Shown piece by piece: positions 7,846 through 63,495 of a DNA stretch of 64,000 nt. The stretch covers positions 3,286,001 to 3,350,000 of the forward strand of contig NZ_CP061170.1 in assembly GCF_011751745.2 (NCBI RefSeq), given 5' to 3'. Numbering within the stretch: position 1 is the first letter of the stretch; each line of letters begins with the position of its first letter. Under the pieces are notes generated by a model, which worked only from the letters and a program-made list of their open reading frames with translations, was not told the DNA's origin and did no database searches. The translations under genes were made by a program, and so were the position numbers. This stretch comes from Paramicrobacterium fandaimingii. GTDB lineage: Bacteria > Actinomycetota > Actinomycetes > Actinomycetales > Microbacteriaceae.

Positions 7846-9282
7846 CTACTCGAGCCCCGTGTAGACAGTCTTCTCCCACGTGTAGAACTCGGTTGCCGTG
7901 TGCCCCTGCTCGCGGAACGTGTTGGACGATGAGTCCTTCACTCCCCCGAACGGCACGTGCAGGTCGAGCCCTGACGTCGGCCGGTTCACCTTCACGACGC
8001 CGGCCTGCACGCGGCTGGCGAAGTTTGTCGAGTACGCAAGGCTGTCAGTGCAGATGCCCGCGGTGAGCCCGTATGGCGAATCGTTGATCGCCGCGAGGCC
8101 CGACTCGTAGTCGTCGACGTCGAGCACCGCGACAACCGGGCCGAAGATCTCGTCTGTGGCGATCGGTGAGTCGTGCGCAACATCGGTGGCGACGACAGGC
8201 GCGAAGTGAAGTCCGTCGGCACTCGCGTCACCGTATGCCAGACGGGCACCGCCCGCGACAGCATCCTCAACCGCCGTGACATCTTGCTTAAGCTGCGCCT
8301 CGCTCACGACCGGGCCCATCGTCGTGCCCGCATCGAGGCCGTCGCCGGGAACGTAGGTGCTGGCGAGAGCCGTGAGCTCGTCGAGGAATGCCTGGCGAAC
8401 TCCGGGCGTCACGTAGACACGCGAGGTTGCCGTGCAGGCCTGGCCCGTGAGGCTGAATGCGCCGGCCGCGACGACCTTCGCCGCCTTCTTCGCGTCAGCA
8501 TCATCGAGAACGAGCACGCCGTTCTTGCCGCCCATTTCGAGCTGGGCGCGAGCGCGACGCGCACCGAGTGTCTGCTGCAGCTTCAGCCCGACGTTTGTCG
8601 ACCCGGTGAACGAGAGCGCGGCAACACGCGGATCATTCGCGAGTGCCTCGCCCACGACGCTGCCGCGCCCGTGAACGACGTTGAAGACACCGGCAGGCAG
8701 GCCCGCGTCGCGCAGCGCCAGCCCTAAGTGCGTCGCCGACATCGGGGTGATCTCGGCCGGCTTCAGCACCACGGCATTGCCGCTGACCAGCGCTGGGGCG
8801 GTCTTCCACGCCGGAATCGCGATGGGGAAGTTCCACGGTGTGATCAACCCGACGACGCCAAGCGCTTCGCGGCGCGTGGTCACCGTTGTGTTCGGCATTC
8901 CGCTCGGGAAGACCGAGCCGCTTGCCGACCAACCCAGCGATCCGAAGAACTGAAACACGCCGATCGCGCGCCCCACTTCGCCCTCGGCCTCAGCGCGCGT
9001 CTTTCCCTCTTCGCGCACGAGGTCTTCGGCGATCTGCGGCTTGCGCTCGGTGAGCAGCTGCGCCGCCTTCAGCAGAATGGCGCCGCGAACGGGCGCGGGC
9101 GTTGCGGCCCAGGCGCCCTGCGCGTCGACGGCGGCCGCGATGGCAGCATCCGTCTCGGTCTTTCCTCCGACGGGCGCGAGCACGGCGACATCGCCTGGAC
9201 GTGCGGGGTTGCGGCGTTCTTTGCCTGCATCGCCGAAGATCTCTCCGGCAATCAGGTGCTGGGCAACAGCGGGGGAGGTCAT
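7846..9282 (-). CDS. NAD(P)-dependent aldehyde dehydrogenase, ketoglutarate-semialdehyde type
   Basis: The 478-residue enzyme has the complete ALDH catalytic set: Asn151 (PWNFP), Glu249 (LEMGGKN) and the nucleophile Cys283 in GQACTATSR. The CTATSR context resembles the YcbD/GucD type that oxidises 2-ketoglutaric semialdehyde; this is recognition from memory, not a search. A DapA-family enzyme lies two genes upstream, and known routes (glucarate, pentonate, hydroxyproline) pair exactly these two families to make 2-oxoglutarate. The ATG at 9282 (MTSPAVAQ) is preferred over longer readings, which give an arginine-rich non-protein-like leader. Confidence 0.87.
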   Translation of the reverse strand: MTSPAVAQHLIAGEIFGDAGKERRNPARPGDVAVLAPVGGKTETDAAIAAAVDAQGAWAATPAPVRGAILLKAAQLLTERKPQIAEDLVREEGKTRAEAEGEVGRAIGVFQFFGSLGWSASGSVFPSGMPNTTVTTRREALGVVGLITPWNFPIAIPAWKTAPALVSGNAVVLKPAEITPMSATHLGLALRDAGLPAGVFNVVHGRGSVVGEALANDPRVAALSFTGSTNVGLKLQQTLGARRARAQLEMGGKNGVLVLDDADAKKAAKVVAAGAFSLTGQACTATSRVYVTPGVRQAFLDELTALASTYVPGDGLDAGTTMGPVVSEAQLKQDVTAVEDAVAGGARLAYGDASADGLHFAPVVATDVAHDSPIATDEIFGPVVAVLDVDDYESGLAAINDSPYGLTAGICTDSLAYSTNFASRVQAGVVKVNRPTSGLDLHVPFGGVKDSSSNTFREQGHTATEFYTWEKTVYTGLE

Positions 9283-9314: not shown

Positions 9315-10088
9315 TCAGAGTGTGCGAACGAGACCGCCGTCGACGCGCAGCGCGACGCCGGTGATGTACGCGGCTTGTCCGCTGCACAGGAAAGCTCCCG
9401 CAGCGCCGAACTCGCCGGGCTCACCGTAGCGTTCGGCGGGAATCGTCTGCTGCGAACGGCGCTGTGCCTCGGCAGGCTCGATGCCCTGCCGCTCGGCCTG
9501 CGCCGCGTCGAGCTGCGCGACCCGGTCGGTGGCAATGCGCCCGGGCAGCAGCAGGTTGACGGTGACGCCGTCTGCGGCAACCTCGGCGGAAAGCGTCTTG
9601 AGATAGCCGGCCAGTGCCGCGCGCCCGAGGTTCGACGAAGCAAGGTTCGCGATCGGCGACACGATGCCGCTGGATCCGACGGCGAGAATGCGCCCCCAAC
9701 CACGGTCGCGCATGCCCGGAAGCACGCGTGCCACGAGGTCTTGGCCCGGAGCGACGAGACGATCGAACGCGTCGGCGACATCGTCTGCGCTCGCGTCTGC
9801 GGCGGTACCTGGGCGGGGCCCTGGGCCGTTGATCACCAAAATGTCGATGGGGCCGAAGGATGCTGTCGCTCGCTCGAGCGCGGCGGCCCGCGAGTCGGCG
9901 TCGGTGACGTCGAGTTCGACGCCGATCGCCGACGGCAGCTCCGTGGCAATCTGCACGGCGACATCGCCGCGGCGCCCGGTGACGACGACGTTTGCGCCCT
10001 CGGCGGCGAGCGCCTCGGCGATCGCTCGCCCGAGCCCTGCGGTGGATGCCGCAACAAACGCGGTCTTGCCGTGAAGCTGCAGGTCCAT
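9315..10088 (-). CDS. Atypical short-chain dehydrogenase/reductase-like protein
   Basis: This 257-residue protein has the SDR Rossmann fold, but the catalytic residues are changed. At the expected YxxxK site it reads SNLGR: Ser152 in place of Tyr and Arg156 in place of Lys. NNAG is replaced by INGPG (86-90) and the cofactor loop is ASTAGLG. Ser139/Ser140 remain. A group of beta-ketoacyl-reductase-like SDRs without the tetrad is known, so it may bind a nucleotide or CoA substrate by another mechanism. Its start shares one base with the stop of the DapA-family gene (TGATG). Confidence 0.8.
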   Translation of the reverse strand: MDLQLHGKTAFVAASTAGLGRAIAEALAAEGANVVVTGRRGDVAVQIATELPSAIGVELDVTDADSRAAALERATASFGPIDILVINGPGPRPGTAADASADDVADAFDRLVAPGQDLVARVLPGMRDRGWGRILAVGSSGIVSPIANLASSNLGRAALAGYLKTLSAEVAADGVTVNLLLPGRIATDRVAQLDAAQAERQGIEPAEAQRRSQQTIPAERYGEPGEFGAAGAFLCSGQAAYITGVALRVDGGLVRTL

Positions 10089-11005
10089 CAGCGCACCTCC
10101 TGCGCGTCGAGTTCCGCGAGGTGGTCGGCGGCAATGGCATCGAGTTCCGCAGGAAACCCCGCGGCGGGCGCGCGCACGGCTGCCGAGGCGAAGAGGCCTC
10201 GGCGGCGGAACAGCTCCTTGCGCAGCGCGAGGGCGATGCCCGGCTGCTGCTCGAAGTTGATCAGCGGCAGGTAGGGAACAAGCTCGGCGCGAGCGGCCTC
10301 GGCATCCCCGGCCAACCACGCAGTGACGCAGCTGACGAGAGCTTCGGGGACCGAGAACCCGGTCATCGCGCCGGCAGAACCAGCGGCAAGCTCGTCGAGC
10401 AGCCCCTGCCCTCCGAGCCCTCCGAAGACGGAGACGCCGACGCGCGCCGTGATGCGCGCAATGGCAACGGCCGTCGGGGGCGCTTCCGCCTTGACTGCCG
10501 ACACGAAGGGGCTCGCCTCGACGACAGCGATGAGGTTGTCTGTCGAGATCGAGATGCCGCTGGACTTCGGGTAATCCTGCAGCACGACGTCAGCCCCCGT
10601 CGCTTCGTTGATGCGTCGCAGGTGGTCGATGACGACAGCAGGGCTTCCGGAGTTCGCCTGCACCATGACGGCCCGCAGCCGGTCTCCGACCGTTGCCTGC
10701 GCGTTCTCGATCTCTGCGATGGCGGGGGCGGTTGCGAGCGACGTGACTCCCGCGACGATCGGCAAGCTGCTGTTCTCGGCGACGACGCCGAGCACCTGCA
10801 TCCGCTCGCTCGCCGTGAGCGCGGCGGCTTCGCCGAACACTCCCAGCACGGTGAGCCCGGCGGCTCCGACCGATTCGTAGAACTGCACGAGGCGCACGAG
10901 GCTCGCGTCGTCGATCTCGCCGGCATCCGTGAATGGTGTGGCGACGACTCCCCACACCCCGCGAGCAAGAGGCTCGACGCGGTGCGCTGCAGTGTTCTCT
11001 GTCAT
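10088..11005 (-). CDS. DapA/NanA-family aldolase or dehydratase
   Basis: The 305-residue TIM-barrel protein belongs to the dihydrodipicolinate synthase family, which forms a Schiff base with a 2-oxo acid. The key residues are present: GVFGEA (55-60), Tyr145 in LQDYPKSSG and the Schiff-base Lys172 in SAVKAEAPP. The carboxylate-binding loop is GVFGE instead of the GTTGE of true DapA, and the catabolic context argues against lysine synthesis. With the semialdehyde dehydrogenase downstream it could release 2-ketoglutaric semialdehyde from a deoxy-oxo acid or a cyclic imine; this is inference. Confidence 0.85.
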   Translation of the reverse strand: MTENTAAHRVEPLARGVWGVVATPFTDAGEIDDASLVRLVQFYESVGAAGLTVLGVFGEAAALTASERMQVLGVVAENSSLPIVAGVTSLATAPAIAEIENAQATVGDRLRAVMVQANSGSPAVVIDHLRRINEATGADVVLQDYPKSSGISISTDNLIAVVEASPFVSAVKAEAPPTAVAIARITARVGVSVFGGLGGQGLLDELAAGSAGAMTGFSVPEALVSCVTAWLAGDAEAARAELVPYLPLINFEQQPGIALALRKELFRRRGLFASAAVRAPAAGFPAELDAIAADHLAELDAQEVR

Positions 11006-11009
11006 ACGA

Positions 11010-11813
11010 TCACTTCCCCGGCCAGACGGGCGTGCGCTTCTGTTGAAATGCGGCGACGCCCTCGGCCGAGTCTTCGCTGTCGAGCGCGTCAACAAGTGCG
11101 GGCAAACGCATCGCTCGTGCCTCGTGCGCGGTGAGATGGGCGGTGCGCGACACCATCTGCTTGACGGCTCTCACCGATGTGGGTGCGCAGGCGAGAACCT
11201 GCTCCACCCAGCGCTCGACGGCGGCATCGAGCTCCTCCGCCGCGACAACCTCATTGACGAGGCCCATGTGCGCCAGCTCGGCCGCGGGCGCCTTGCGGCC
11301 TGTGACGAGAAGGCTCATCGCCTGCGTGTACGGAACACGACGCACAAGCTGATGGATGCCGCCGTCCAACGCGAGCCGGCCGACCCGCGGTTCGGTGAGC
11401 CCGAACTGCGCACGATCGGCGGCAACGACGATGTCGGCACCCAGCACGATCTCCATGCCGCCGCCGAGAGCGTAGCCATTCACCTTCGCGATCACGGGAA
11501 CGTCGAGCGTCGTGCGCAGGCTGAGCCCGCCGAAGCCGTTGGGGTCAAGCTCCGCCCAGTATTCGAGGCCCGTCTTGTCGACAGCATCCGCCGACATGTC
11601 GGCCCCAACGCAGAACGCCTTCTCTCCGCCACCGGTGATGACGACAAGGCGCACGCGGTCGTCGGCTTCGATCGCCGCCCAGATCTCGTTGAGCTTCTTG
11701 TGCGTTGCCCGATCGACGGCGTTGAGCACACGCGGTCTGTCGATCACGACCGTGGCGACACCGCGATCGTCGACGTCGAACCTCACCTCATCGATCTGTG
11801 TCTCGTCGGTCAT
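11010..11813 (-). CDS. Enoyl-CoA hydratase/isomerase (crotonase) family protein
   Basis: This 267-residue crotonase has the two oxyanion-hole segments (FCVGADM near 67-73 and YALGGGMEI at 114-122) and both catalytic glutamates, Glu121 and Glu141, at the 20-residue spacing seen in true hydratases. It can therefore be expected to add or remove water on an enoyl-CoA. It overlaps the CoA-transferase gene by four bases, which suggests that it acts on the CoA thioester made by that enzyme. Confidence 0.88.
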   Translation of the reverse strand: MTDETQIDEVRFDVDDRGVATVVIDRPRVLNAVDRATHKKLNEIWAAIEADDRVRLVVITGGGEKAFCVGADMSADAVDKTGLEYWAELDPNGFGGLSLRTTLDVPVIAKVNGYALGGGMEIVLGADIVVAADRAQFGLTEPRVGRLALDGGIHQLVRRVPYTQAMSLLVTGRKAPAAELAHMGLVNEVVAAEELDAAVERWVEQVLACAPTSVRAVKQMVSRTAHLTAHEARAMRLPALVDALDSEDSAEGVAAFQQKRTPVWPGK

Positions 11814-13042
11814 TTCAACACCCCCAGTTCATGCAGACGACGAATCGCGTCGTCGTCGAAGCCGTTCTCGGCGAGGATCTCATCGTTGTGCTCGCCGAGG
11901 CGCGGAGCAACCCGACGCGCCGTCGCCGGCGTATCCGAGAGGTGAATCGGCGCGTTCAGCGTGCGGAACGTGCCAGCGGTCGGATGCTGCGACTCGATGA
12001 TCATGCCGTTTGCCGCCGTCTGCGCGTCGTCGAGTGTCTCGGCGAGCGTGCGAACGGGCGCATTGAGAATGCCTTCATCTTCGAGACGCTGCGTCCAGTG
12101 CGCTGTTGTGTTTGTCGCGAACGCTGCAGCGAAGATGCTGTGCAGCTCGGCCCGGTGCTCGCGCTGGGCGTCGATGTCGGCGAACTCGGGGCGCAGCGTG
12201 AGATCCTCATCGAGGTCGAGCGCCTGCGAGATGTGCAGAAGTGGGTCGGCAGCGAAACCACCGACGAGGCAGACGGCTGAATCTGTTGTGGCGAAGACAC
12301 CGGTCAGCGGCATGCGCCCCCAGTTCACCTCGAACCCGCGGTTCAGCTGCATCGCAGCCTCTTGCATCTGCATGTGAAGCATCGAGTCGTACATGGTGAC
12401 TTCGACCTTCTGCCCCTCGCCCGTCTCGTCGCGCGAGCGCAGGGCGAGAAGAATGCCCTGAAACAGGTGCATGCCCGTCGTGTAGTCACAGAGCGTCGTC
12501 GGGTAGACGGTGAGCGGATCGTCGTCTGAGCTGCGCCGCCACATCACGCCCGAGTATGCCTGGTTGATGACGTCTTGCCCGCCGAGCGACGAGTACGGCC
12601 CGGTGTTGCCGAAGCCCGTTCCCGATGCCCAGATGAGCCGCGGGTTGAGCTCTTTCAGCTCCTCGTACCCGAAGCCCATGCGCTCCATCACGCCGGCGCG
12701 GAAGTTGCTCACCACGACGTCGGCGCGCGCAATGATGTCGCGCATCACGGAGCGGCCGTCTGCCGATTTCGTGTCGATCGCCATGCCGCGCTTGTTGCGG
12801 TTGATCGAGAGGAAGATCGGGTTGTCCTGCCCGTCTTTGTCTGGGAGGGAGTTGCGCGATGTGTCACCGCGACCCGGCCGCTCCACCTTGATCACGTCGG
12901 CGCCGAAGTCGCCGAGGAGCTGCGTGCAGCTCGGCCCCATGAACACTTGGGTGAAGTCGACGACGGTGAGCCCGGCAAGCGGAAGCTCCCGCGGCGCAGT
13001 GGCCGCGGCATCCGCCTGCTCGTTCGCTGTCTGCATGGTCAT
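11810..13042 (-). CDS. CaiB/BaiF (type III) CoA-transferase, copy 1
   Basis: The 410-residue protein belongs to family III CoA-transferases, which move CoA between carboxylic acids through an aspartyl-CoA intermediate. The N-terminal signature VDFTQVFMGPSCTQLLGDFGA and the likely catalytic Asp157 in GGQDVINQA are present. It is clearly paralogous to the CaiB protein at 21.1-22.3 kb, with long shared blocks (GADVIK, NRNKRG, VVVSNFR, GVMER, QAYSGVM, GQKVEV). Four-base overlaps link it to both neighbours, so it is translated with the FAD enzyme and the crotonase. Confidence 0.9.
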   Translation of the reverse strand: MTMQTANEQADAAATAPRELPLAGLTVVDFTQVFMGPSCTQLLGDFGADVIKVERPGRGDTSRNSLPDKDGQDNPIFLSINRNKRGMAIDTKSADGRSVMRDIIARADVVVSNFRAGVMERMGFGYEELKELNPRLIWASGTGFGNTGPYSSLGGQDVINQAYSGVMWRRSSDDDPLTVYPTTLCDYTTGMHLFQGILLALRSRDETGEGQKVEVTMYDSMLHMQMQEAAMQLNRGFEVNWGRMPLTGVFATTDSAVCLVGGFAADPLLHISQALDLDEDLTLRPEFADIDAQREHRAELHSIFAAAFATNTTAHWTQRLEDEGILNAPVRTLAETLDDAQTAANGMIIESQHPTAGTFRTLNAPIHLSDTPATARRVAPRLGEHNDEILAENGFDDDAIRRLHELGVLK

Positions 13043-14403
13043 ACTCCCACCGTCTCCTCTTCGTCGATGGTGGCATTCTCTGAGGGGATGTCACCGGGGT
13101 CGGCGTTGTGCTGACGCATGCGCTGCTGAATCTCTTTCGGGTCGACGTTGCGCACGAGCGTGTTCTGCTCGATGGCGAGCGTCGCCGCAGACGCGACGGC
13201 CTGACCCATGGCCATGCACGGCGGAATCTCGCGCGACGACTTCTGCGCATCGGAGGTCGCCGAGTAGTGGCGTCCGGCGACGAGCAGCTGGTCGACGTTT
13301 GTGGGCAGAAGCGAACGGTACGGGTAGTAGTAGTCGCGGCCTCGGGCGACGGTGTCGCGGAAGTGGCGGCGCTGCGTGACGTCGTCTTTCGTCATGACGT
13401 ACTCGCCCTGCAGCAGGCGCGTCTGACGCACGCCCATCTGCGGCGCGGTGTCGATGACGAAGCTGTTCTCGAACCCGGGGAGAAACTCCCTGACGTACTC
13501 GACGGCCTCGGCGATGCGCTCGCGTGCCGCGAATTCAGCCTCGGTGAGCGATGCCGGGTCGGCGCCGTCGTAGCCGGACATGTGGGGCGCGTTGCACCAG
13601 ACGACCCCAGGCAACGGTGTTTTGAGCCACCACAGCTCCCACGCACCGCCGAGAATGCGCTTCACCTTGCGGTTGATGGCGCGCGCGCCCTTCGGGTCTG
13701 CCTGCTCGAACTCCTCGGCGCGCTTCGTGTCGACTCCGGCGAGGCGGAACACGAGAGTTGTGATGTAGCTACCGTGAATGAAGTCGGCTCCGGCTCGCGA
13801 GGCGACGTCGATGTCACCCGTTGTGTCGATGACGACATCGGCCATGTGCGCCTGCGGCCCGGCCTTCGTCTCGGCGATGACGCCCTTCATCACGCCGTCG
13901 TCGACGATGGGGCGCGAGAACCACGAGTGCAGCAGCAGGTTGACTCCCGACTCGCGAACGAGGTCATTCGACACGCGCTTCCACCCGTCCGGGTCAAAGG
14001 CGGCGGCGTAGCAGATGGGCTTCGGGTTGACGTGGGTGTGAAAGTCGAAGGTGCCGAAGCGCCCCCACTTGTTCCACAGCTCCCGCGATGCCTTGCGGTC
14101 TTCCGCAGGCGGAACGATGGCGAGGTCGAGCTTCTGCAGTCGTTCAATGTACTCGGAGACGACACCGGTGACGGTGATCTCCTGCCCATTGATCATGTCA
14201 TCGAGCACGAGCACCATTCCGCCCGAGGCCAGTCCGCCAAGCGAGGGGTAACGCTCAAGAAGAGTGACGGATGCTCCCGAGCGAGCTGCCGTGACGGCCG
14301 CGGCGACTCCGGCGGGGCCGCCTCCCACGACGAGCACATTTGAGCGAGAGGCAATCGGCGCTCTCAGGTCATCACTGGTGACGCGAAGATCGAGGGTTGT
14401 CAT
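13039..14403 (-). CDS. FAD-dependent oxidoreductase (FAD_oxidored type)
   Basis: The 454-residue flavoprotein opens with a dinucleotide-binding fold (VLVVGGGPAGVAAA, 23-36) followed by the ERYPSLGGLASGG stretch typical of the PF12831-type FAD enzymes that oxidise organic acids or sugar acids. A conserved C-terminal FAD segment (LLVAGRHYSAT) is present. No signal peptide is seen, so it is cytoplasmic. The ATG at 14403, eight bases after the transporter gene, is chosen because the fold begins soon after it. The ferredoxin encoded in the linked ABC operon is a possible electron partner. Confidence 0.85.
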   Translation of the reverse strand: MTTLDLRVTSDDLRAPIASRSNVLVVGGGPAGVAAAVTAARSGASVTLLERYPSLGGLASGGMVLVLDDMINGQEITVTGVVSEYIERLQKLDLAIVPPAEDRKASRELWNKWGRFGTFDFHTHVNPKPICYAAAFDPDGWKRVSNDLVRESGVNLLLHSWFSRPIVDDGVMKGVIAETKAGPQAHMADVVIDTTGDIDVASRAGADFIHGSYITTLVFRLAGVDTKRAEEFEQADPKGARAINRKVKRILGGAWELWWLKTPLPGVVWCNAPHMSGYDGADPASLTEAEFAARERIAEAVEYVREFLPGFENSFVIDTAPQMGVRQTRLLQGEYVMTKDDVTQRRHFRDTVARGRDYYYPYRSLLPTNVDQLLVAGRHYSATSDAQKSSREIPPCMAMGQAVASAATLAIEQNTLVRNVDPKEIQQRMRQHNADPGDIPSENATIDEEETVGV

Positions 14404-14411
14404 TGTGTTTC

Positions 14412-15710
14412 TCACTTTCCAACGTGAATGCCGTTGATACGGCGTGCGATGAGGTAGAAGATGACGCTGAGTGCTGAGAGCACGGCAACGTAGACGGGGA
14501 ACGCCCAGTCGAGCCCAAGGGAGTGGAACCACACGAGCAGGAACGATGCGGTGCCGCCGAAGATGGCGACGCCGAGCCCGTAGCCGAGCGATGTGCCTGC
14601 GCCGCGGTAGCTCTTGGGCATGAGGGATGCCGACACCACGTTGTAGAGCGTCATGTTGAGCACGAGCACGACCGAGCCGCCGAGCAGCACGGCGGCGAAG
14701 CCGCCGATTCCGGGCTGCACGTAGAGCAGCATCAGGAACACCGAGGGAATGACGAGGATGCGGGCGACGATGAACCACTGCGAGATGGCCCGGCCATCAA
14801 CGAGTCTGCCGACGACGAGGCTTCCGACAACGAGAACGATCCCGAGCACCGTGGTGAGGGCGAACACCGCCGTCGGGTCTTCCTGCATCGTCGATCGTGC
14901 CGAGTTGGGGAGCCCAACGTTCCAGGCGTAGTTGTACGCCTGCACGGCGCCGACGACGAAGATGATCGCGAGAACGCTGACCCAGCTCTTGCGCACGCCC
15001 ATCCAGACCGAGCCGGTGGTGGCCTGCGCGAGTTCATCCTTCTTCATGGTCTCGGGAAGGGTGCGGCGCAGGTAGAGAATGACGAAACCGAATGCCGCGC
15101 CGACGACGAACGGAATGCGCCAGCCCCACTCGCTCATTGCCCCGTCGCCGATGCTTGCCGAGACGATGAAGCTCACGAGCGGCGCGAGAAGAATTCCGAC
15201 GTTCACGAAGAACGAGATGATGCCGGCGACGAAGCCCTCGCGGCCTTCGGGCACGAGCTCAACGGCGTGCGCTGTCGAGAGCGGCGCCTCGACACCGGTG
15301 GAGATTCCCTGCACGACGCGGCAAAGCAGCAGGATGATAGGCGCCCAGATGCCGATCTCTGCGTAGGTCGGCGACACGGCGATCACCAATGTGCTGATGG
15401 CCATCATCGTGATCGACAGCATCATGATCTTGCGCCTGCCGATGCGGTCGGCGAAGGTTCCGAGCACCACGCCGCCGAGCGGGCGGAAGAGGAAGCCGAC
15501 GGCGAAGATCGCGAGAGCATCGAGCGTTGCGGTCACGGGGTCGACGCTCGGAAAGAAGTGGGGGCCGATATACGACGAGAGCAGCCCGAAGATCATCCAG
15601 TCGTACCACTCGAGGGTGTTGCCGAGGCCGAGTCCGAGAATGCCACGTCGAACTTCGGGCGTGAAACGCTCGCGTTTGCGGCCCTTCTTCGTGACGCCAG
15701 TGTCAATCAT
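14412..15710 (-). CDS. MFS transporter, metabolite:H+ symporter (MHS) family
   Basis: This 432-residue, 12-helix transporter has MHS hallmarks: GNTLEWYDWMIFG near residue 29-41, FLFRPLGGVVLG and the loop motif TFADRIGRRK. MHS members import organic acids and related zwitterions (citrate, ketoglutarate, shikimate, proline betaine). It is the first structural gene after the XRE-cupin regulator, and only eight bases separate it from the FAD oxidoreductase, so it probably brings in the acid that this operon degrades. The 118 bases upstream contain no convincing separate promoter. Confidence 0.88.
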   Translation of the reverse strand: MIDTGVTKKGRKRERFTPEVRRGILGLGLGNTLEWYDWMIFGLLSSYIGPHFFPSVDPVTATLDALAIFAVGFLFRPLGGVVLGTFADRIGRRKIMMLSITMMAISTLVIAVSPTYAEIGIWAPIILLLCRVVQGISTGVEAPLSTAHAVELVPEGREGFVAGIISFFVNVGILLAPLVSFIVSASIGDGAMSEWGWRIPFVVGAAFGFVILYLRRTLPETMKKDELAQATTGSVWMGVRKSWVSVLAIIFVVGAVQAYNYAWNVGLPNSARSTMQEDPTAVFALTTVLGIVLVVGSLVVGRLVDGRAISQWFIVARILVIPSVFLMLLYVQPGIGGFAAVLLGGSVVLVLNMTLYNVVSASLMPKSYRGAGTSLGYGLGVAIFGGTASFLLVWFHSLGLDWAFPVYVAVLSALSVIFYLIARRINGIHVGK

Positions 15711-15828: not shown

Positions 15829-16437
15829 CTACCAGGTCGGCGGCGTGATCACCCAGATCGCTACGCACGTTTCGTCGTAGTCGTTTTTGTACCAGTGCGG
15901 AATCGTGGAGTCGAAGGTGATCGAATCGCCGGCTTCGAGCTGGTGCCTCTGGCCATTGAGGTACACATCTTTCTTGCCGGAGATGATGAGCCCGAACTCT
16001 TCGCCTCCGTGTGTGAACGGAATATCGCTGGTGTCGTGTCCAGGAGGAGTGACGACCCAGAGTGCTTCGAGGGTGCCGTTGAGGTCGGGGGTGAGCAGTT
16101 CGTATGCTGCTTCACCGACGGCTTCGGGGGCGACCCCCTTGAGATCTCTCCTGTCTGCTTTGCGCACAACGGGAGACCGTGTTTCTTCATGGCTGGGGAA
16201 CAGCTTCCCCACTGGGATCTCCAGACCATGTGCCAACTGCGCCATTGTCGTGAACGACGGGTTGGCAAGTCCTCTCTCGATCTGGCTGACGATCGCCGGG
16301 CTGAGGTGTGTGACCTCAGACAGCTCTTGCAGCGTGAGCCCCTTCTCCTTGCGGAGAGCGCGCACCTGCGTGCCGACACTCGTGAGGATCGCATCAACGG
16401 CCGGACCCGGCGATGTCTCGCTTGGTGTGAAGACCAT
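15829..16437 (-). CDS. XRE-family regulator with C-terminal cupin sensor
   Basis: The 202-residue protein joins an XRE helix-turn-helix (about 22-75: LTLQELSEVTHLSPAIVSQIERG) to a cupin domain (about 110-198, with HGGEEFGLIISG). Such HTH-cupin proteins sense small organic ligands and control the adjacent catabolic genes. Its promoter at 16472-16499 carries the same sequence as the promoter of the divergent ABC operon, which suggests that it regulates itself, the operon below it and the importer. Confidence 0.9.
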   Translation of the reverse strand: MVFTPSETSPGPAVDAILTSVGTQVRALRKEKGLTLQELSEVTHLSPAIVSQIERGLANPSFTTMAQLAHGLEIPVGKLFPSHEETRSPVVRKADRRDLKGVAPEAVGEAAYELLTPDLNGTLEALWVVTPPGHDTSDIPFTHGGEEFGLIISGKKDVYLNGQRHQLEAGDSITFDSTIPHWYKNDYDETCVAIWVITPPTW

Positions 16438-16468: not shown

Positions 16469-16499
16469 TTTAGTATATTGAAGTTTTTTACTAGGTCAA
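16469..16499 (-). promoter_or_regulatory. XRE-cupin promoter with shared operator
   Basis: Reading the minus strand, -35 TTGACC (16494-16499) and -10 TATACT (16472-16477) are separated by 16 bases, both close to consensus. The 24 bases at 16469-16492 recur exactly, in opposite orientation, at 18002-18025. The spacer AGTAAAAAACTTCAA is identical in both promoters, and TAGTA/TACTA half-sites flank it. Identity beyond the promoter hexamers suggests an operator lying between and over them. Confidence 0.75.
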
Positions 16500-16521
16500 A
16501 TATTTTGCTGAAAGTCGGATC

Positions 16522-17094
16522 TCAATCAAGCAGTGCGGCGATGACACTGTCGAGTCTTTTGTGTATATCGGCTTCGTCTTCGTGAAAGTAGAGCAGCTGG
16601 GCAGCGAGGCCTTGTGCCAGTGCGAGCACTGCCCATGCGACGGTATCGGCGTCGACATGCTGGGGCACCTCTCCCTCGGACCGGGCGCGTGCAATGAGCG
16701 AAGCGAGCAGGTGGCGCACCTGCGTGTCGCTCTGGGCGATCGCCGCAGCCATCGCGGCATCCGAGAGAGCCACCTGCGCAAATGCGTCGCCCTGGCGCTG
16801 TGCCGTGCTGCGTTCCGCATCGAGGGGAAGGATTCCGAGCAGCAAGGCGACGAGCCAGCTGTGAAGTGTGGGGCGGCCCGGTTCGCCCGGTGGCAACGGG
16901 GCTGCACTCTCGCGCAATCGCGTGAAGGACGCGGCGAGCATGTGCTCCTTTGATGGGAAGGCCTTCTGCACCGAACCGAGAGAACAGCGTGCTTCTGTGG
17001 CGACAGCTCGAAATGAGAGTGCCGTCATTCCGTGACGACCGATGATGCGCAGCGCGGCGTCAGCGAGCTCCGTCTGACGCCGGGTGAGTTCCAT
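16522..17094 (-). CDS. TetR-family repressor of the CPBP protease operon
   Basis: The 190-residue protein has a TetR N-terminal helix-turn-helix (TALSFRAVATEARCSLGSVQKAFPSKEHML, about 24-52) and an alpha-helical ligand domain. The ATG at 17094 starts two bases after the stop of the upstream CPBP gene, so the two form one operon. The perfect palindrome in the operon promoter (17879-17915) is its probable binding site, giving autoregulation. The effector is unknown. Confidence 0.85.
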   Translation of the reverse strand: MELTRRQTELADAALRIIGRHGMTALSFRAVATEARCSLGSVQKAFPSKEHMLAASFTRLRESAAPLPPGEPGRPTLHSWLVALLLGILPLDAERSTAQRQGDAFAQVALSDAAMAAAIAQSDTQVRHLLASLIARARSEGEVPQHVDADTVAWAVLALAQGLAAQLLYFHEDEADIHKRLDSVIAALLD

Positions 17095-17096
17095 AT

Positions 17097-17861
17097 CTAC
17101 GAGGGTAAGTGATTCGCCGCGCGCCACATCACGAGCACGTAGGCAAGGATGACCGCACAGGCGATTCCGATGCCGACCAGCGCAGCGCTGGACGTGGTGT
17201 TTCCGCCGATGTAGTTGGCGAAATCCCACACCGCGTGCCACAGGATCGCCGGCCAAAGGCTGCCCGTCAACACCGTCAGCTCCGCAGCCGCCACCCCAAA
17301 GAGCGCGGCGAAGACCACCTGAAGAATTGCCTCCGGAATCGTCTGCCCTCCGGCAAGGTTCGCCAGGTGCAGCACGGCGAACATCACCGAGCTGCCAATG
17401 ATTGCCACTCGCACTCCGGCGCCTCTCAAGACAGCGATAATGATTCCGCGGAACCAGATCTCCTCATTGACGGCGACACAGAGCGTCAACACGGCGTAGG
17501 CGACAAGAACGATACCCGCCACTTTCAGGCCTTGCGTGGCAAGCACGAGCACGATGGTGATCAGCAGCGGCAGAAACCACAAGACTGCTCGACCACCCCG
17601 AGGAGCGCGGAATCCAAACTGTCGAAGGCTGGCGGGTGAAACCTTCATGACGATGACGCCGAGGGCTGCGCTGATTGCGGCACCGCCCGCAATCGTCAGA
17701 GCTGCTGTCGAGTCGCCTGCCTGCAGCACCTGTGACGCGGCAGACGCTGCGGCGGTGAAGAAGACAGGGACGAACGCGAACGCAATCGCCACCACCCAGC
17801 GATAGCGAACGGGCCACATTGCCGGCCCGGAACTGTCGATGCTCGTGTACGTGCTGGACAT
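17097..17861 (-). CDS. CPBP-family intramembrane glutamic protease
   Basis: This roughly 254-residue protein with about eight membrane helices carries the three CPBP (CaaX protease/bacteriocin-processing, Abi) motifs: NEEIWFRG, the FAVLHLAN histidine and HAVWDFANY. Members cleave within membranes; bacterial substrates are mostly unknown. A longer reading to 17945 would place the operator and promoter inside the gene, whereas the ATG at 17861 has GAAGGG six bases upstream and lies just after the promoter. It is co-transcribed with the TetR gene behind it. Confidence 0.82.
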   Translation of the reverse strand: MSSTYTSIDSSGPAMWPVRYRWVVAIAFAFVPVFFTAAASAASQVLQAGDSTAALTIAGGAAISAALGVIVMKVSPASLRQFGFRAPRGGRAVLWFLPLLITIVLVLATQGLKVAGIVLVAYAVLTLCVAVNEEIWFRGIIIAVLRGAGVRVAIIGSSVMFAVLHLANLAGGQTIPEAILQVVFAALFGVAAAELTVLTGSLWPAILWHAVWDFANYIGGNTTSSAALVGIGIACAVILAYVLVMWRAANHLPS

Positions 17862-17878
17862 TCTCATCCCTTCGCGGA

Positions 17879-17929
17879 ATACAGTCGTATTCCACTCAAA
17901 AGAATACGACTGTATCAGCCCGATGTCAA
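17879..17929 (-). promoter_or_regulatory. CPBP-TetR promoter with perfect 14-bp inverted repeat
   Basis: On the minus strand, -35 TTGACA (17924-17929) and -10 TATTCT (17901-17906) are 17 bases apart. A perfect inverted repeat, ATACAGTCGTATTC (17879-17892) and its complement (17902-17915), with a 9-base spacer overlaps the -10 and the start region. This is a typical TetR repression layout; the TetR gene is the second gene of the operon. Confidence 0.8.
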
Positions 17930-17994
17930 AGGATGATTCCGTCATCGCTGGCGGCTCAATGTTCCATAAACATTCACTTCTTTTCTGCGTTTGG

Positions 17995-18025
17995 TTGACT
18001 CAGTAAAAAACTTCAATATACTAAA
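17995..18025 (+). promoter_or_regulatory. ABC-operon promoter with shared XRE operator
   Basis: The plus strand shows -35 TTGACT (17995-18000), a 16-base spacer and -10 TATACT (18017-18022). Bases 18002-18025 are the exact complement of 16469-16492 in front of the XRE-cupin gene. The rest of the 421-base gap between the CPBP gene and the binding-protein start (17862-18282) holds the CPBP promoter, this promoter and about 250 bases of leader in which I see no gene. Confidence 0.75.
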
Positions 18026-18282
18026 TTTACTTTCACCGTTCCCGCACTCGCAGCATGTGCAGGAGCGGGCTTGGAGACCCCAGCACGGAAGTATTTGCAC
18101 CGCGCGCAATCGAAGAATCTGAGCGAACCGCCCTGCGCGACACCGCTCGAGCAGCATCCCTTTCCGTCCCCTGAGACAGCGGGGTGCCACCGCTATGCCC
18201 GGCACCCTGCATACCTCAGATCGTCATGTCTGTGCAGATGGACATGACACAACTCAGAAGCATCTCAACGAGGAGAGCACTC

Positions 18283-19345
18283 ATGTCCACATCTCAGTTT
18301 TTCACGCCGGAATCTGCTGGCGGGTGCCGGTTTGTCGGTCGGCGCCTTCGCACTCGGAACGTCGCTGCTCACCGCCTGCAGCGAGCCGGGTCGAGGGCCC
18401 GCTGGAAAAGGCGGCGGCGATGGCACGCCACTCGCACTGCAGCTTGGCTGGCTGATCAACTCCGGTCAGTTCGGCGAAGCGATCGCCCTCTCGAAGGGCT
18501 GGTACGACGACGCCGGCATCAGCTTCTCGATCAACCCGGGCGGGCCCAGCATCGACGGTATCGCGCTCGTCGCTGCCGGTGAATCGCAGATCGGCCAGAT
18601 CTCGTCGAGCCCCTCGCACATGCTCGCTCGGTCGCAGGGAATCCCGGTCAAGGCGTTCGCCGTCTGCGTGCAAGACCACCCGTACGCGTGGCTCTCCAAG
18701 CCCGAGAGCCCCATCGAGAAGCCCGAGGATCTCGTCGGCAAGACGGTCGGCGGCCCGGCGACATCCGACATTCTCGTCAAGGCGCTGCTCGCGGCGAACA
18801 AGATCAGCGAAGACGAGGTCGAGTTCGTCGCAACGGGAGAATCCGTCGCGCCTCTGATGACGGGAAAAATCGATGCCTGGGGAACCTGGCTCAACTCTCT
18901 CTCGCAGCGCCGCCCTCTCGGCGACGACTTCGTCTCGATGCGGCTCTCTGAAAACGGTGTTCCGCTCTACGGGTACATCTACTATTCAACAGACGACGTG
19001 CTCGAGAAGAAGTCAGACATCGTCAAGGAGTTCACCTCGGCGACGGCGCGCGGCTGGGAGTTTGCCTACGACAACGTCGCCGATGCGGCGAAGGCCACAG
19101 TAGAGATGTCGCCCGAGTCGAAGCTCAAGGACATTCAGGATGACGGCGAGGCGATGATGAAGTACGTCTTCACAAAGTCCACGGCCGAAAAGGGTTGGGG
19201 AACGATGGACAAGTCAATTTGGGAGAGCCAGATCAAACTGTGGGATGAGCTCGGACAGTTCAACTCCACACCTCCCACCGTCGATGACCTCGCCACTTGG
19301 GACATTCTCGACGCAACGGCCGACTCCCGTCCGAAGCTCGGCTAA
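18283..19345 (+). CDS. NMT1/taurine-type ABC substrate-binding lipoprotein with N-terminal frameshift
   Basis: The mature protein resembles NMT1/SsuA-type binding proteins for nitrate, sulfonates or thiamine-pyrimidine-like ligands (LQLGWLINSGQFGEAIALSKG, then VGKTVGGPATSDILVKALL). The only good start is the ATG at 18283, seven bases after GAGGAG, but it is out of frame with the rest. A run of five T at 18298-18302 explains this: with four T the gene would begin MSTSQFSRRNLLAGAGLS and lead into LLTACS, a textbook Tat lipoprotein signal. As written, only a TTG at 18332 without a ribosome-binding site or the arginine pair is available. It is either a sequencing error, a real mutation or a variable homopolymer. 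The frame is intact after the signal. Confidence 0.8.
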
Positions 19346-19378
19346 GGGCAGCGCATGCAGGTAAAAGAGGAAACCGCA

Positions 19379-20143
19379 ATGCAGCCCATCAGCATCGACG
19401 ACGTCGGCATCACGTTCGACACGACGGACGGTAAGGTCACCGCCCTCGAGGGCGTCTCGACGTCACTTGACGGCCAGAGCTTCACATCGCTGCTCGGCCC
19501 GTCTGGGTGCGGCAAGTCAACACTGCTGCGCATCATCGCCGACCTGCTCGAGCCGACATCCGGTTCGGTAAGCGTTCTCGGCGAATCCCCGGAGACGGCT
19601 CGCACGAGCCGCCACCTCGGCTTCGTCTTTCAGGATGCGGCGCTTCTTCCGTGGCGCGATGCCCTGAAGAACGTGACGCTTCCGCTCGAGATCGGCAATG
19701 GCAAAGTCACGGAGGACGACAAGAATCGCGGCCGCGAACTGCTTGCGCTCGTCGGCCTCGACGGGCGCGAAGGCGCATTGCCGTCGCAGCTCTCCGGTGG
19801 GCAGCGGCAGCGTGTGTCGATCGCCCGGGCGCTCATCACCAAGCCCAAGGTGCTGCTTATGGACGAGCCGTTCGGCGCGCTTGACGAGATTACGCGCGAC
19901 CGCCTCAACGAGGAGCTTCTGCGCATTTGGCAGGTGACGAACACGACGATCATCTTTGTCACGCACAGCATCGCCGAGTCTGTCTTTCTCTCGCAGCGCG
20001 TCGTGGTGATGTCTGCGCAGCCCGGCCGCATCCGTGATGTCGTCGACATCGACCTGCCCGACGCGAGAACCCGCGAGGTGCGCGCACTTCCCGAGTTCTC
20101 CGGGTACGTCACGCATCTGCGCAATCTTCTGGAAGGGGTGTGA
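19379..20143 (+). CDS. ABC transporter ATPase (taurine/nitrate type)
   Basis: The ATPase energises the importer encoded with it. About 254 residues include Walker A (GPSGCGKST), Q-loop (FQDAALLPW), signature LSGGQRQRVSIARA, Walker B (VLLMDEPFGALDE) and the switch histidine (FVTHSIAE). The ALLPW segment is typical of the SsuB/TauB/NrtD group. I favour the ATG at 19379 (AGAGGA upstream); an in-frame ATG at 19355 is possible. It lies about 30 bases after the binding protein and seven before the permease. Confidence 0.92.
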   Translation: MQPISIDDVGITFDTTDGKVTALEGVSTSLDGQSFTSLLGPSGCGKSTLLRIIADLLEPTSGSVSVLGESPETARTSRHLGFVFQDAALLPWRDALKNVTLPLEIGNGKVTEDDKNRGRELLALVGLDGREGALPSQLSGGQRQRVSIARALITKPKVLLMDEPFGALDEITRDRLNEELLRIWQVTNTTIIFVTHSIAESVFLSQRVVVMSAQPGRIRDVVDIDLPDARTREVRALPEFSGYVTHLRNLLEGV

Positions 20144-20149
20144 TCTGAC

Positions 20150-20977
20150 ATGGTCGGAACAAACACCGAAACCCTCGTGATGAGCGGCACGCGTCGCGGC
20201 ACCAAGCCAAAACCTCGACGCTCAGCGTTCAAACGGGTCGGGGCTCCGCTGTTGGCTGTCGTCGCGCTTGTCGTGCTCTGGCAGGCCGTGTGCGTCGTCT
20301 TCAACGTGCCGTACTACATCGTGCCGTCGCCTCTCGAGGTCGGCCAATCGTTTGGCGCGAACATCTCGACGCTGCTTGAGCACTCTGCTCCCACGGTGAT
20401 CGAGGCGGGCGCAGGGTTCCTCGTCGGAAACTCGATAGCGATTCTGCTCGCCGTGCTCTTCGTGCACTGGAAGGCGGCGGAAGACGCCCTCATGCCGGTC
20501 GCCGTCTTCATTCAGACGGTGCCGATCGTCGCCATCGCTCCCGTGCTCGTTCTGATGCTCGGAACCGGGTACGCACCGAAGATCGTCATCGCGGCGCTCA
20601 TCTCGTTCTTCCCCACCCTCGTCAACATGGTCAAGGGCCTCAAGGCCGTAGAGAAGGAGCATCTCGAGCTGTTCCGGCTGCTCTCGGCGTCGCGCTCCGA
20701 GACGTTCTGGAAGCTGCGCGTCTTCGCCTCGATGCCGTTCCTCTTCTCGTCGCTGCGCATCACGGCCACCACCTCGGTGATCGGCGCCATCGTCGCCGAG
20801 TGGATCGGCTCGCAGCGTGGCCTCGGGTACATGATCATTCAGGCGACCTACAACTTCGACACCCCGCTGCTGTACGCCACCATGATCATGGCGTCGCTTG
20901 TCGCCGTTGTGTTCTTCTCGATCGTCTCGGTGCTTGAACGCCTGTTCGTGACGTGGTCTGCTGAGTCCAAGATGTAA
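20150..20977 (+). CDS. ABC transporter permease (SsuC/TauC type)
   Basis: The 275-residue membrane protein has a basic N-terminus and about six helices. The cytoplasmic coupling loop (EKEHLELFRLLSASRSETFWKLRVFASMP) is the EAA-type contact for the ATPase. Sequence style and operon order (binding protein, ATPase, permease) match aliphatic sulfonate, nitrate and pyrimidine importers. One permease gene implies a homodimer. Confidence 0.9.
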   Translation: MVGTNTETLVMSGTRRGTKPKPRRSAFKRVGAPLLAVVALVVLWQAVCVVFNVPYYIVPSPLEVGQSFGANISTLLEHSAPTVIEAGAGFLVGNSIAILLAVLFVHWKAAEDALMPVAVFIQTVPIVAIAPVLVLMLGTGYAPKIVIAALISFFPTLVNMVKGLKAVEKEHLELFRLLSASRSETFWKLRVFASMPFLFSSLRITATTSVIGAIVAEWIGSQRGLGYMIIQATYNFDTPLLYATMIMASLVAVVFFSIVSVLERLFVTWSAESKM

Positions 20978-21081
20978 TCACGAGCCTCACAGCTTGGGGG
21001 TCGATGTCCGCCGGGAGGCGCGCATCGGCCCTCAATTCACCACCCGAACACCCAGACCACCCGAGTACCCAGGAGGATGCG

Positions 21082-22260
21082 ATGTCTCGACCATTGGATG
21101 GCGTCACCGTCATCGACTTCACGCAGGTGATGCTCGGGCCCTCCTGCACGCAGGCGCTCGGAGACTTCGGCGCCGACGTCATCAAGATCGAGCGTCCGGG
21201 GTCGGGCGACCTGTCACGCAGCGGCGTGCTTGCTCACACCGGGCAAGACAATCCCGTCTTTCTCAGTCTCAACCGCAACAAGCGCGGCATCGCGGTTGAT
21301 CTCTCGACGGATGCTGGTCGCGCGGTGATTCTCGATCTGCTGCGTGACGCCGACGTCGTCGTCAGCAACTTTCGCCCCGGCGTCATGGAGCGCCTCGGCC
21401 TTGACTACGACGCCGTATCGGCGATCAACCCGCGCATCATCTGGGCGGCGGGCTCGGGCTTCGGCGCGTCAGGCCCCTACGCGCACAAGGGCGGTCAAGA
21501 CATTCTGGGGCAGGCGTACTCCGGTGTGATGAAGCGATTGGCCGACCCAGAGCATCCGGTGTCGATCTATGCGACGCCGATCGCCGACTACACAGCGGGC
21601 CAGCATCTGGTGCAGGGCATTCTTCTCGCTCTGCTTCACCGCGAGAAGACGGGCGATGGCCAGAAGGTGGAGGTGAGTCTCTACAACTCGATGCTCGCTA
21701 TGCAGATGCAAGAGGCGACGACGCGCCTCATGTACGACCAGGAGCTCAATTGGGCGCTCATGCCCTTGAGCGGGTGCTTCCCGACGGCGGACTCCGAGAT
21801 CGTCATCGTCGGCGCGTTCAAACCGAATCCGCTGCGCGACATCTGCGCTGCGCTTGAGCTGCCCGATCTGTCGATCGAGGAGCGCTTCTCGACGCTCGAG
21901 AGGCTGAAGGAGAATCGACGCGAGATTCGGCAGCTCATCGCCGACCGGCTGAGGGAAGGCACGAGCGAACGCTGGCTCGCCGCGCTCGAGAGGGAAGACG
22001 TGCTCTGCGGGCCGGTGCGCAGCCTCGCCGAGGCGCTGGCCGACCCGCAGACCGCCCACAACAACATGATCATCGAGTTCGACGGCGGCAGCGGGCAGAT
22101 CGTCAAGACGATTGCGTCGCCCATCGCGATGTCGCAGGTGGCATCCGAGATTCGGCACACGCCGCCGCGGTTGGGTGAGCACAGTCGCGAGCTGCTGCTG
22201 GGGCTCGGGTACGACGCTGCCCGCATCGACGAGCTCGTCGCGAGTGGCGCCGTGCAATAG
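21082..22260 (+). CDS. CaiB/BaiF (type III) CoA-transferase, copy 2
   Basis: The 392-residue enzyme is a paralogue of the CaiB protein at 11.8-13.0 kb, with the same DFTQVMLGPSCTQALGDFGA start and a likely catalytic Asp140 in GGQDILGQAYSG. AGGAGG lies five bases before the ATG at 21082, which rules out the upstream in-frame start. It follows the ABC permease by 104 bases. Two related CoA-transferases under one predicted regulator may form a heterodimer or serve successive steps. Confidence 0.9.
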   Translation: MSRPLDGVTVIDFTQVMLGPSCTQALGDFGADVIKIERPGSGDLSRSGVLAHTGQDNPVFLSLNRNKRGIAVDLSTDAGRAVILDLLRDADVVVSNFRPGVMERLGLDYDAVSAINPRIIWAAGSGFGASGPYAHKGGQDILGQAYSGVMKRLADPEHPVSIYATPIADYTAGQHLVQGILLALLHREKTGDGQKVEVSLYNSMLAMQMQEATTRLMYDQELNWALMPLSGCFPTADSEIVIVGAFKPNPLRDICAALELPDLSIEERFSTLERLKENRREIRQLIADRLREGTSERWLAALEREDVLCGPVRSLAEALADPQTAHNNMIIEFDGGSGQIVKTIASPIAMSQVASEIRHTPPRLGEHSRELLLGLGYDAARIDELVASGAVQ

Positions 22261-22371: not shown

Positions 22372-22683
22372 ATGGTTTACGTGATCGGATCGGCCTGTGT
22401 CGATGTGAAAGACCTCGCGTGCATTGACGCGTGCCCGGTCGACTGCATCTACATCGGCGAGCGCACCCTCTATATTCAGCCGGAGGAGTGCGTTGACTGC
22501 GGTGCCTGCGAACCGGTGTGCCCGGTCGAGGCAATCACCTACGTCGACGACGTCGAGCCCGAAGACGAGAAGTTCGTCGACATCGCGTACGAGCTCTTCG
22601 AGAAGGTCGGCTCCCCCGGTGGCGCAGACGCGCACGGCCCGGTCGAGGACCACCCGACGATTACCGCTCTTCCCCGACGCTGA
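22372..22683 (+). CDS. fdxA: 7Fe ferredoxin, FdxA type
   Basis: The 103-residue protein has eight cysteines in two sets: Cys9, 17, 21, 25 and Cys40, 43, 46, 50. The first set has Asp rather than Cys in the second position (CVDVKDLACIDACPVDC), the pattern of ferredoxins with one [3Fe-4S] and one [4Fe-4S] cluster. It may serve the FAD oxidoreductase of the partner operon, though it could also be a general electron carrier. AAAAGGAG precedes the ATG. Its last 23 bases overlap the end of the convergent SDR gene. Confidence 0.92.
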   Translation: MVYVIGSACVDVKDLACIDACPVDCIYIGERTLYIQPEECVDCGACEPVCPVEAITYVDDVEPEDEKFVDIAYELFEKVGSPGGADAHGPVEDHPTITALPRR

Positions 22684-23602
22684 CGCTACCGAGCAGCTCG
22701 GCCGTCGCCTCCCAGAGACGGGCCTCGCGAGCCCTGTCGAGGGCGAACGGTTCGACATCGCGCTGGCGTGTCTTCACAACGAAGGCGCCGTCGCGTAGGT
22801 GCGACCAGCGTTCGTCGAGCGTGACCGAGGCGAGCGCCGGCCCCGAGCGCGCGGGTGACGAGATGCCGGGAATGCGTTCAAGCATCCTCCCCACGCGCAG
22901 CATCGCAGCGCCCTGCTCGCGAAACAGGCCCGTCCCCGGCATGTAGCCGGGCTCAAAAACCGCGACGCCGACGCCGTCTGGCGCACGTCGTTGCAGTTCA
23001 TGCGCGTAGTAGAGCAGCGCGAGCTTCGAGTTCGAATACGCCACTCCGGCCGCGCGCGTCGTCGGCGTCTCGCCGGCGGCTAAGGGGGTCGCGAGTTCGA
23101 GCGGATCTCGCCACTGCGCAGGAGGCACCCCCAGAAGACGGCGAACCGCGTTCAGATGGTAGGTGTTCGAGCCGAGCAGAACGACACGCGACGGTGAAGC
23201 GAACGAGTCGAGCAGATCGCCGATCAGCTGGGCGTGGGCAAGGTAGTTGACAGCGAACGTGAGCTCGTAGCCGTCGGCCGATGCCCGTCGCGTATCGACA
23301 ACCGAGGCTCCGGCGTTCGCGACCAGGGCCCGCAGAGGTGCAACTGCTGCGGCATCCACGAGCTCTTTCACTCTCAAGCCAGCCGCTCGCACGTCTGAGA
23401 GCTGCGCGAGGTCCGCGGGAATCGTCTCAACGTGCGCTCCTTCCGCTCGGGCGTTCTCAGCAACGGCGTCGAGGCGCGGCCCCTCTCGCCCGACAAGCAG
23501 CAGATCGGGCCGCTGGGGCGCAGGACGGCGCGCCATCGCCATCACCGCCGAACGCCCCAGGCCGCCCGTCGGGCCGGTGACGAGCACCGTGCCAGCGCTC
23601 AC
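22661..23602 (-). CDS. Short-chain dehydrogenase (retinol dehydrogenase-like)
   Basis: The 313-residue SDR has TGPTGGLG for cofactor binding, VANAG and the active-site YSNSK. The long C-terminus is typical of retinol-dehydrogenase or protochlorophyllide-reductase-like SDRs; the substrate is unknown. The GTG start overlaps the stop of the upstream SDR gene (GTGA), so the two are coupled. It is convergent with fdxA. Confidence 0.85.
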   Translation of the reverse strand: MSAGTVLVTGPTGGLGRSAVMAMARRPAPQRPDLLLVGREGPRLDAVAENARAEGAHVETIPADLAQLSDVRAAGLRVKELVDAAAVAPLRALVANAGASVVDTRRASADGYELTFAVNYLAHAQLIGDLLDSFASPSRVVLLGSNTYHLNAVRRLLGVPPAQWRDPLELATPLAAGETPTTRAAGVAYSNSKLALLYYAHELQRRAPDGVGVAVFEPGYMPGTGLFREQGAAMLRVGRMLERIPGISSPARSGPALASVTLDERWSHLRDGAFVVKTRQRDVEPFALDRAREARLWEATAELLGSVSVGEER

Positions 23603-63381: not shown

Positions 63382-63458
63382 TGGTTATGACCAATCTTGA
63401 CGTGCGAGGTACTTCTGTGTCAATATTCTCGACATCCGCTTTAATTGGTATATACCAG
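63382..63458. promoter_or_regulatory. Two HutC-type operators (TGGTnnnnACCA)
   Basis: TGGTTATGACCA (63382-63393) and TGGTATATACCA (63447-63458, perfect palindrome) lie in the 132-base divergent region, one next to each gene. They match the dyads bound by HutC/DasR-type GntR proteins, so the adjacent regulator should bind both. Confidence 0.75.
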
Positions 63459-63495
63459 TTTACTCTCTGCCATAGCCAAAGATGGAAAGGGCACC

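Follow-up and report, generated by a model that had tools for sequence, protein, structure and literature searches.

Do two operons that are kept apart by an unrelated pair of genes answer to a single regulator? The question is raised by a 64,000-nucleotide stretch of the Paramicrobacterium fandaimingii genome (contig NZ_CP061170.1, positions 3,286,001 to 3,350,000; hereafter the window, numbered from its first base), in which the 24 bases of 16469-16492 are exactly the complement of 18002-18025. Read along each promoter, both copies give AGTAAAAAACTTCAATATACTAAA, preceded by TTGACCT at one copy and TTGACTC at the other, that is, by TTGAC and two variable bases; taken as one inverted repeat, the two copies match over 31 nt at 94%. 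Each copy consists of TTGACY, 16 bases, and TATACT, so that two promoters are oriented away from each other. An earlier sequence-only reading of the window had described the identity, the GTCAA that follows after two variable bases, and outward promoters with TTGACC or TTGACT, a 16-base spacer and TATACT, and direct comparison of the sequences bears out these details. The 24-mer is rare: at up to three mismatches, none of 100 dinucleotide shuffles of the window contained any match. Spread to unrelated promoters, which the same reading had named as evidence against a dedicated site, was not seen, since the whole 3,622,163-bp genome holds only the two copies at up to three mismatches and the reversed control gave none.

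The promoter-operator on the minus strand, at 16469-16499 (TTGACCTAG-TAAA-AAAC-TTCA-ATATAC-TAAA), ends 31 bp before the ATG of a gene for a 202-aa XRE-cupin protein, the proposed repressor (15829-16437, minus strand; HTH_3 7e-13, Cupin_2 2.8e-17), and is predicted to span the -35 box, the spacer and the -10 box. Behind this gene, on the same strand, lie those for an MFS transporter of the metabolite/H+ symporter type (14412-15710; below the NCBIfam cut-off), a FAD-dependent oxidoreductase (13039-14406; PF12831; start inferred from homologues and approximate), a first family III CoA-transferase (CoAT1, 11810-13042), an enoyl-CoA hydratase/isomerase family protein (ECH, 11010-11813), a DHDPS-family lyase (10088-11005), a short-chain dehydrogenase (SDR, 9315-10088) and an aldehyde dehydrogenase (ALDH, 7846-9282), the last three with inferred starts. 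The plus-strand promoter-operator at 17995-18025 (TTGACTCAG-TAAA-AAAC-TTCA-ATATAC-TAAA) lies 257 nt before a conserved ATG at 18283 and heads plus-strand genes for an NMT1/THI5-like substrate-binding protein (SBP, 18332-19345; in comparison with relatives, the frame is displaced at its 5' end), an ABC ATPase (19355-20143), an ABC permease (20150-20977) and a second family III CoA-transferase (CoAT2, 21004-22260). Judging by gene spacing, each operon probably forms one transcript. The next Pfam-matching frames at both ends lie on the opposite strand (6386-7402, plus; 22661-23602, minus), and therefore the regulon, put at about 15 genes in the sequence-only reading, shrinks to 8 + 4 = 12, while the proposal that both operons form one regulon is supported.

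The families encoded give some indication of the chemistry. The second and third best PDB sequence matches of the DHDPS-family lyase are L-2-keto-3-deoxyarabonate dehydratases, and the closest NCBIfam models of the ALDH are 2,5-dioxovalerate and alpha-ketoglutarate semialdehyde dehydrogenases, below cut-off; a PDB search with the ALDH at 1e-90 returned no match. Together these families point towards alpha-ketoglutarate semialdehyde chemistry at scores that reach no curated cut-off. The importer shares its SBP, ATPase and permease families with NMT1/THI5-like importers of the taurine, aliphatic sulfonate and HMP types but, unlike these, is followed by a CoA-transferase gene. Its SBP scores 53.5 bits against a cut-off of 163.5 for the SsuA family and 48.6 against 304.25 for taurine, and no NCBIfam cut-off was reached by the importer proteins among the matches listed (for the ATPase, the best 25 of 186). 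A literature search on the gene set found no related publication.

We consider it highly probable that the XRE-cupin protein, as a dimer, represses its own eight-gene operon and the four-gene ABC/CoA-transferase operon and that a metabolite releases it. Both sites would be sigma-70-type promoters with the operator built into the spacer and the -10 region (TRAA-N4-TTYA-N6-TDAA). The dimer would bind each site and keep RNA polymerase off, silencing the catabolic and the importer genes until binding of a pathway metabolite to the cupin domain released it. The protein is the obvious candidate regulator of both sites. Such a scheme would provide a catabolic cluster of unassigned substrate with a testable regulator, operator and target set, and would join an ABC importer to the same pathway.

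There is precedent. According to PMC7901475, Pseudomonas XRE-cupin proteins are local repressors with core-promoter sites beside their own genes; those of P. aeruginosa with determined regulons are repressors, their sites are palindromic where the motif was determined, and two PsdR binding sites lie around the psdR gene. The regulator described here shares the HTH and cupin architecture of P. aeruginosa ErfA, PauR, PsdR, PA0535, PA1359, PA1884 and PA4987 and, as in those repressors, has a predicted core-promoter site beside its own gene (PMC7901475). Targets are likewise few and near the regulator gene, with two copies in 3.62 Mb, whereas the pathway and the phylum differ and a two-gene unit separates the two targets; the likeness is one of architecture and site position. 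The position and rarity of the sites and their linkage to the XRE gene fit repression from core-promoter sites as in P. aeruginosa, and the system can be regarded, with good support from sequence comparison, as a further case of the known local XRE-cupin repressors and thus as an ordinary local regulon. Among NCBIfam models, the best-scoring for the regulator is PuuR, which controls putrescine catabolism in E. coli; at 68.1 bits, the match to this equivalog (NF007408) falls far under the 211-bit cut-off. The gene content of the cluster is also unlike that of the puu genes.

Conservation across genomes shows which bases of the site matter. Orthologues of the XRE-cupin protein (E <= 1e-55, own genome included) occur in 10 of 398 genomes of the family, 6 of 396 of the order and 2 of 394 of the class, in 15 distinct genomes. 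The upstream regions of the relatives give the pattern TRAA-N4-TTYA-N6-TDAA, with TTGAC four bases ahead in promoter copies; in the resulting composite, TTGAC-N4-TRAA-N4-TTYA-N6-TDAA, the -10 box lies inside N6. The sequence-only reading had deduced a likely dedicated regulator site from the identical spacer. This is supported, but the spacer as such is not conserved; what is conserved is three 4-base arms, two within the spacer and one past the -10 box. Between the ABC-side and XRE-side 24-mers, one base differs in G003 and G004 and four in G001: the perfect match between the copies is peculiar to this genome, and the arm pattern, not the 24-mer, is conserved. Within 150 bp upstream of the XRE gene, the best match has no mismatch at 12 of 15 loci, one in G144 and two in G082 and G701, and at most 1 of 300 shuffles matched as well for 13 of the 15 (10% for G082, 4% for G701); these figures are descriptive, as these upstream regions also supplied the pattern, and the loci were chosen by presence of the XRE gene, which makes the co-occurrence of site and gene partly one of construction. 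The right half alone (TTYA-N6-TDAA) is weak, with 1-6% of shuffles as good in 14 loci and 88% in G701. Inspected by eye, the 31-nt site on the XRE side is set off from the flanking sequence, and the ABC-side leader has conserved blocks too.

Four of the five plasmid matches formed a held-out set, searched over 220 bp. The pattern occurs without mismatch and with TTGAC in place on Rhodococcus qingshengii pLP1 (0 of 300 shuffles), without mismatch at an upstream copy in Arthrobacter StoSoilB13 (1 of 300) and with one mismatch at an upstream copy in Arthrobacter ERGS1:01 (1.3% of shuffles); the Streptomyces mirabilis locus fits poorly (three mismatches, 15% of shuffles). Such upstream copies recur. 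In G542 and G705, an arm copy with no mismatch precedes the promoter copy by about 40 bp, and these copies, like those of StoSoilB13 (no mismatch) and ERGS1:01 (one), are free of -35 and -10 boxes and, read by eye, differ in N6. The third arm of the promoter copy is degenerate (TTAT or TTGT) in all four and in G082. Since arms are found apart from promoter boxes, it does not seem to be RNA polymerase for which they are kept. In G410, in which the XRE gene is placed after the ALDH gene, a copy with one mismatch is also found upstream of the MFS gene.

The three arms also admit a more elaborate reading, to which we give a rather low probability: a compound operator, together with a possible wider XRE-cupin code in actinobacteria and a possible second signal. 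Here TRAA-N4-TTYA and TTYA-N6-TDAA would overlap as imperfect palindromes with the middle arm common to both, and could be read either by a single asymmetric XRE-cupin dimer or by two dimers one after the other. Both halves are imperfect palindromes and only partly self-complementary, with a mean of 0.62-0.68, a value given without a random baseline. The arm code may be wider among actinobacterial XRE-cupin proteins, an example being locus L018 of G089. Upstream regions (200 bp) of 22 non-orthologous XRE-cupin genes gave at least three mismatches in 21 cases and none in one, L018, whose XRE-cupin protein is 38% identical and is preceded by TGAA-N4-TTCA-N6-TGAA. The pair of genes between the operons, for a CPBP-family and a TetR-family protein, also reads towards the XRE operon, which could give a second signal access to the catabolic genes.

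How closely the sites keep to the XRE gene bears on whether they belong to the XRE-cupin protein or to some other regulator with its gene elsewhere, for example a global catabolite regulator. The composite (TTCA form, at most one mismatch) matched 13 times in 134 related genomes against once for the control. Twelve of the 13 lie at XRE-cupin or ABC promoters, in G000-G004, G020, G029 and G111, that is, in eight of the nine genomes known to carry the XRE orthologue; G082 gave no composite match in this search, although its XRE gene is present. The thirteenth match, in G064, has a mismatched -35 box and is the only one in a genome from which no orthologue is known. At zero mismatches, the 22-bp arm pattern (TTCA form) matched 25 times in the 15 ortholog-bearing genomes and the reversed control 5 times; XRE or ABC promoters account for 15 of the 25, spread over 11 of these genomes, and the other 10 lie elsewhere. 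G082, G111, G144 and G701 have no exact match at the XRE gene. In its own genome the exact pattern picks out precisely the two sites, fewer than would be expected of a global regulator. Because XRE-cupin binding is itself inferred, another regulator has some room, and with these distributions we rate that explanation very unlikely. At one mismatch, the pattern matched 27 times in the whole genome against 13 for the control, so weak further targets beyond the two sites are possible. One of these matches includes a palindrome, TGGTATATACCA, at 63441-63462, which is probably an unrelated operator.

The same distributions bear on a simpler view, in which the copies are similar strong housekeeping promoters or a recent copy of one promoter region and no dedicated operator exists. 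TTGAC and TATACT differ little from the sigma-70 consensus and the copies are only 1.5 kb apart, as this view would have it. However, the arms lying outside the boxes are shared between genera and found again in the Rhodococcus plasmid, copies in G542, G705 and StoSoilB13 lack promoter boxes, and all but one of the composite matches are at XRE or ABC promoters; a copy made recently in this genome alone is excluded because G001, G003 and G004 have both copies. The chance that the view is right is slim.

The cluster itself was found in Microbacteriaceae, elsewhere in the order, and on plasmids of Rhodococcus and Arthrobacter, and the gene arrangement XRE-MFS-FAD-CoAT1-ECH-DHDPS-SDR-ALDH is found in 12 of 15 neighborhoods. 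In G144, CoAT2 lies between the XRE and MFS genes, inside the XRE operon. In G701 (L055 6859-9536), the SBP, ATPase and permease genes lie within the XRE operon in the MFS slot, so that one transporter is swapped for another, which supports one pathway. Since importer and MFS carrier alternate at a single position, depending on the genome, the two may transport one and the same compound or related ones. The ABC/CoAT2 operon of G001 and G003 diverges from the XRE gene; about 500 bp separate the coding regions, both sites are present and no TetR or CPBP gene lies between. In G002 and G111 CoAT2 alone is divergent. The SBP orthologue (E <= 1e-60) is limited to 4 of 398 family genomes (G000, G001, G003 and G004, close relatives and not independent), all with a site on both sides. 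Loss of a site in relatives that keep both operons, a second outcome that would have spoken against the sequence-only reading, was not observed: both sites are kept in three of three (G001, G003 and G004), these being the relatives in which the two operons were found arranged divergently. On plasmid pLP1, IS elements lie on the upstream side of the cluster. Among the plasmid copies, L120 matches ECH and L121 matches CoAT1 only as two separate pieces, and neither gene appears in the gene table, which is incomplete.

Layout also bears on the sign of regulation. The XRE-cupin protein could bind both sites and activate, or the sites could cooperate through a DNA loop, as two sites per locus recur, either as divergent promoters or as tandem copies. 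Yet the sites overlap the -10 box and the spacer, a repressor's position, and the P. aeruginosa proteins with determined regulons in the source cited above repress. The divergent sites are 40 bp apart in G002 and G111, 156 bp in G003 and 190 bp in G001, and with the intervening pair 1535 bp in the window and 1615 bp in G004. This range from 40 bp to 1615 bp led us to reject a loop as the main mechanism, as site distances are not conserved, and activation or looping is in sum highly improbable.

Repression of both operons by the XRE-cupin protein also accommodates the intervening pair, which lies outside the proposed regulon and encodes, on the minus strand, a TetR-family regulator (16522-17094) and a CPBP (Rce1-like) membrane protease family protein (17097-17867; start inferred). 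Among the 15 neighborhoods, it separates the operons in the window and G004 only. The two operons would once have formed one divergent pair, with the CPBP-TetR unit, probably self-regulated, now between them. Later insertion is the simplest reading because G001, G002, G003 and G111 are without the pair at that place. Operon proteins of the window are closer to G003 than to G004 (MFS, 96 versus 91%; ALDH, 93 versus 86%) and its XRE protein is closer to G004 (96 versus 93%), so loss in G003 or exchange of a segment is possible. That the regulon is intact across the pair would be because each half carries its own operator, making it a case of a divergent regulon that holds together in this way across a two-gene unit. 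Control of both operons by the TetR protein, suggested by its gene lying between the sites, is scarcely credible and was rejected: at E <= 1e-25 its orthologue is found in 2 of 59 genomes (G000 and G004) and not in G001, G002 or G003, of which G001 and G003 keep both sites, and the pair has its own inverted repeat of different sequence upstream of the CPBP gene. That repeat, a perfect 14-bp repeat with a 9-bp gap at 17879-17915 (imperfect in G004), is perhaps the TetR operator and may serve the CPBP-TetR pair itself.

The 257-nt leader at 18026-18282, ahead of the ABC operon, has conserved blocks within the genus. A riboswitch was rejected, with no Rfam match to E 5 for the leader and none in the window at gathering scores; the leader fold has a z of -2.07, and 8 of 200 shuffles were as stable. 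The leader was matched in 7 of 98 genomes, and outside G000, G001, G003 and G004 the three matches measure 37, 33 and 30 nt and, by eye in context, look like chance, one lying at the start of an apparent coding frame. A short ORF was also rejected, its frame, by eye, not being kept in G003 and G001. At 18262-18340, translation from the conserved ATG (18283) leads into a frame other than that of the SBP. Over these bases the window differs in length from G001, G003 and G004, whose SBP copies are intact and carry an SRRNLLAGAG-type signal, and the frame break in the window reflects either a sequencing error or a displaced start.
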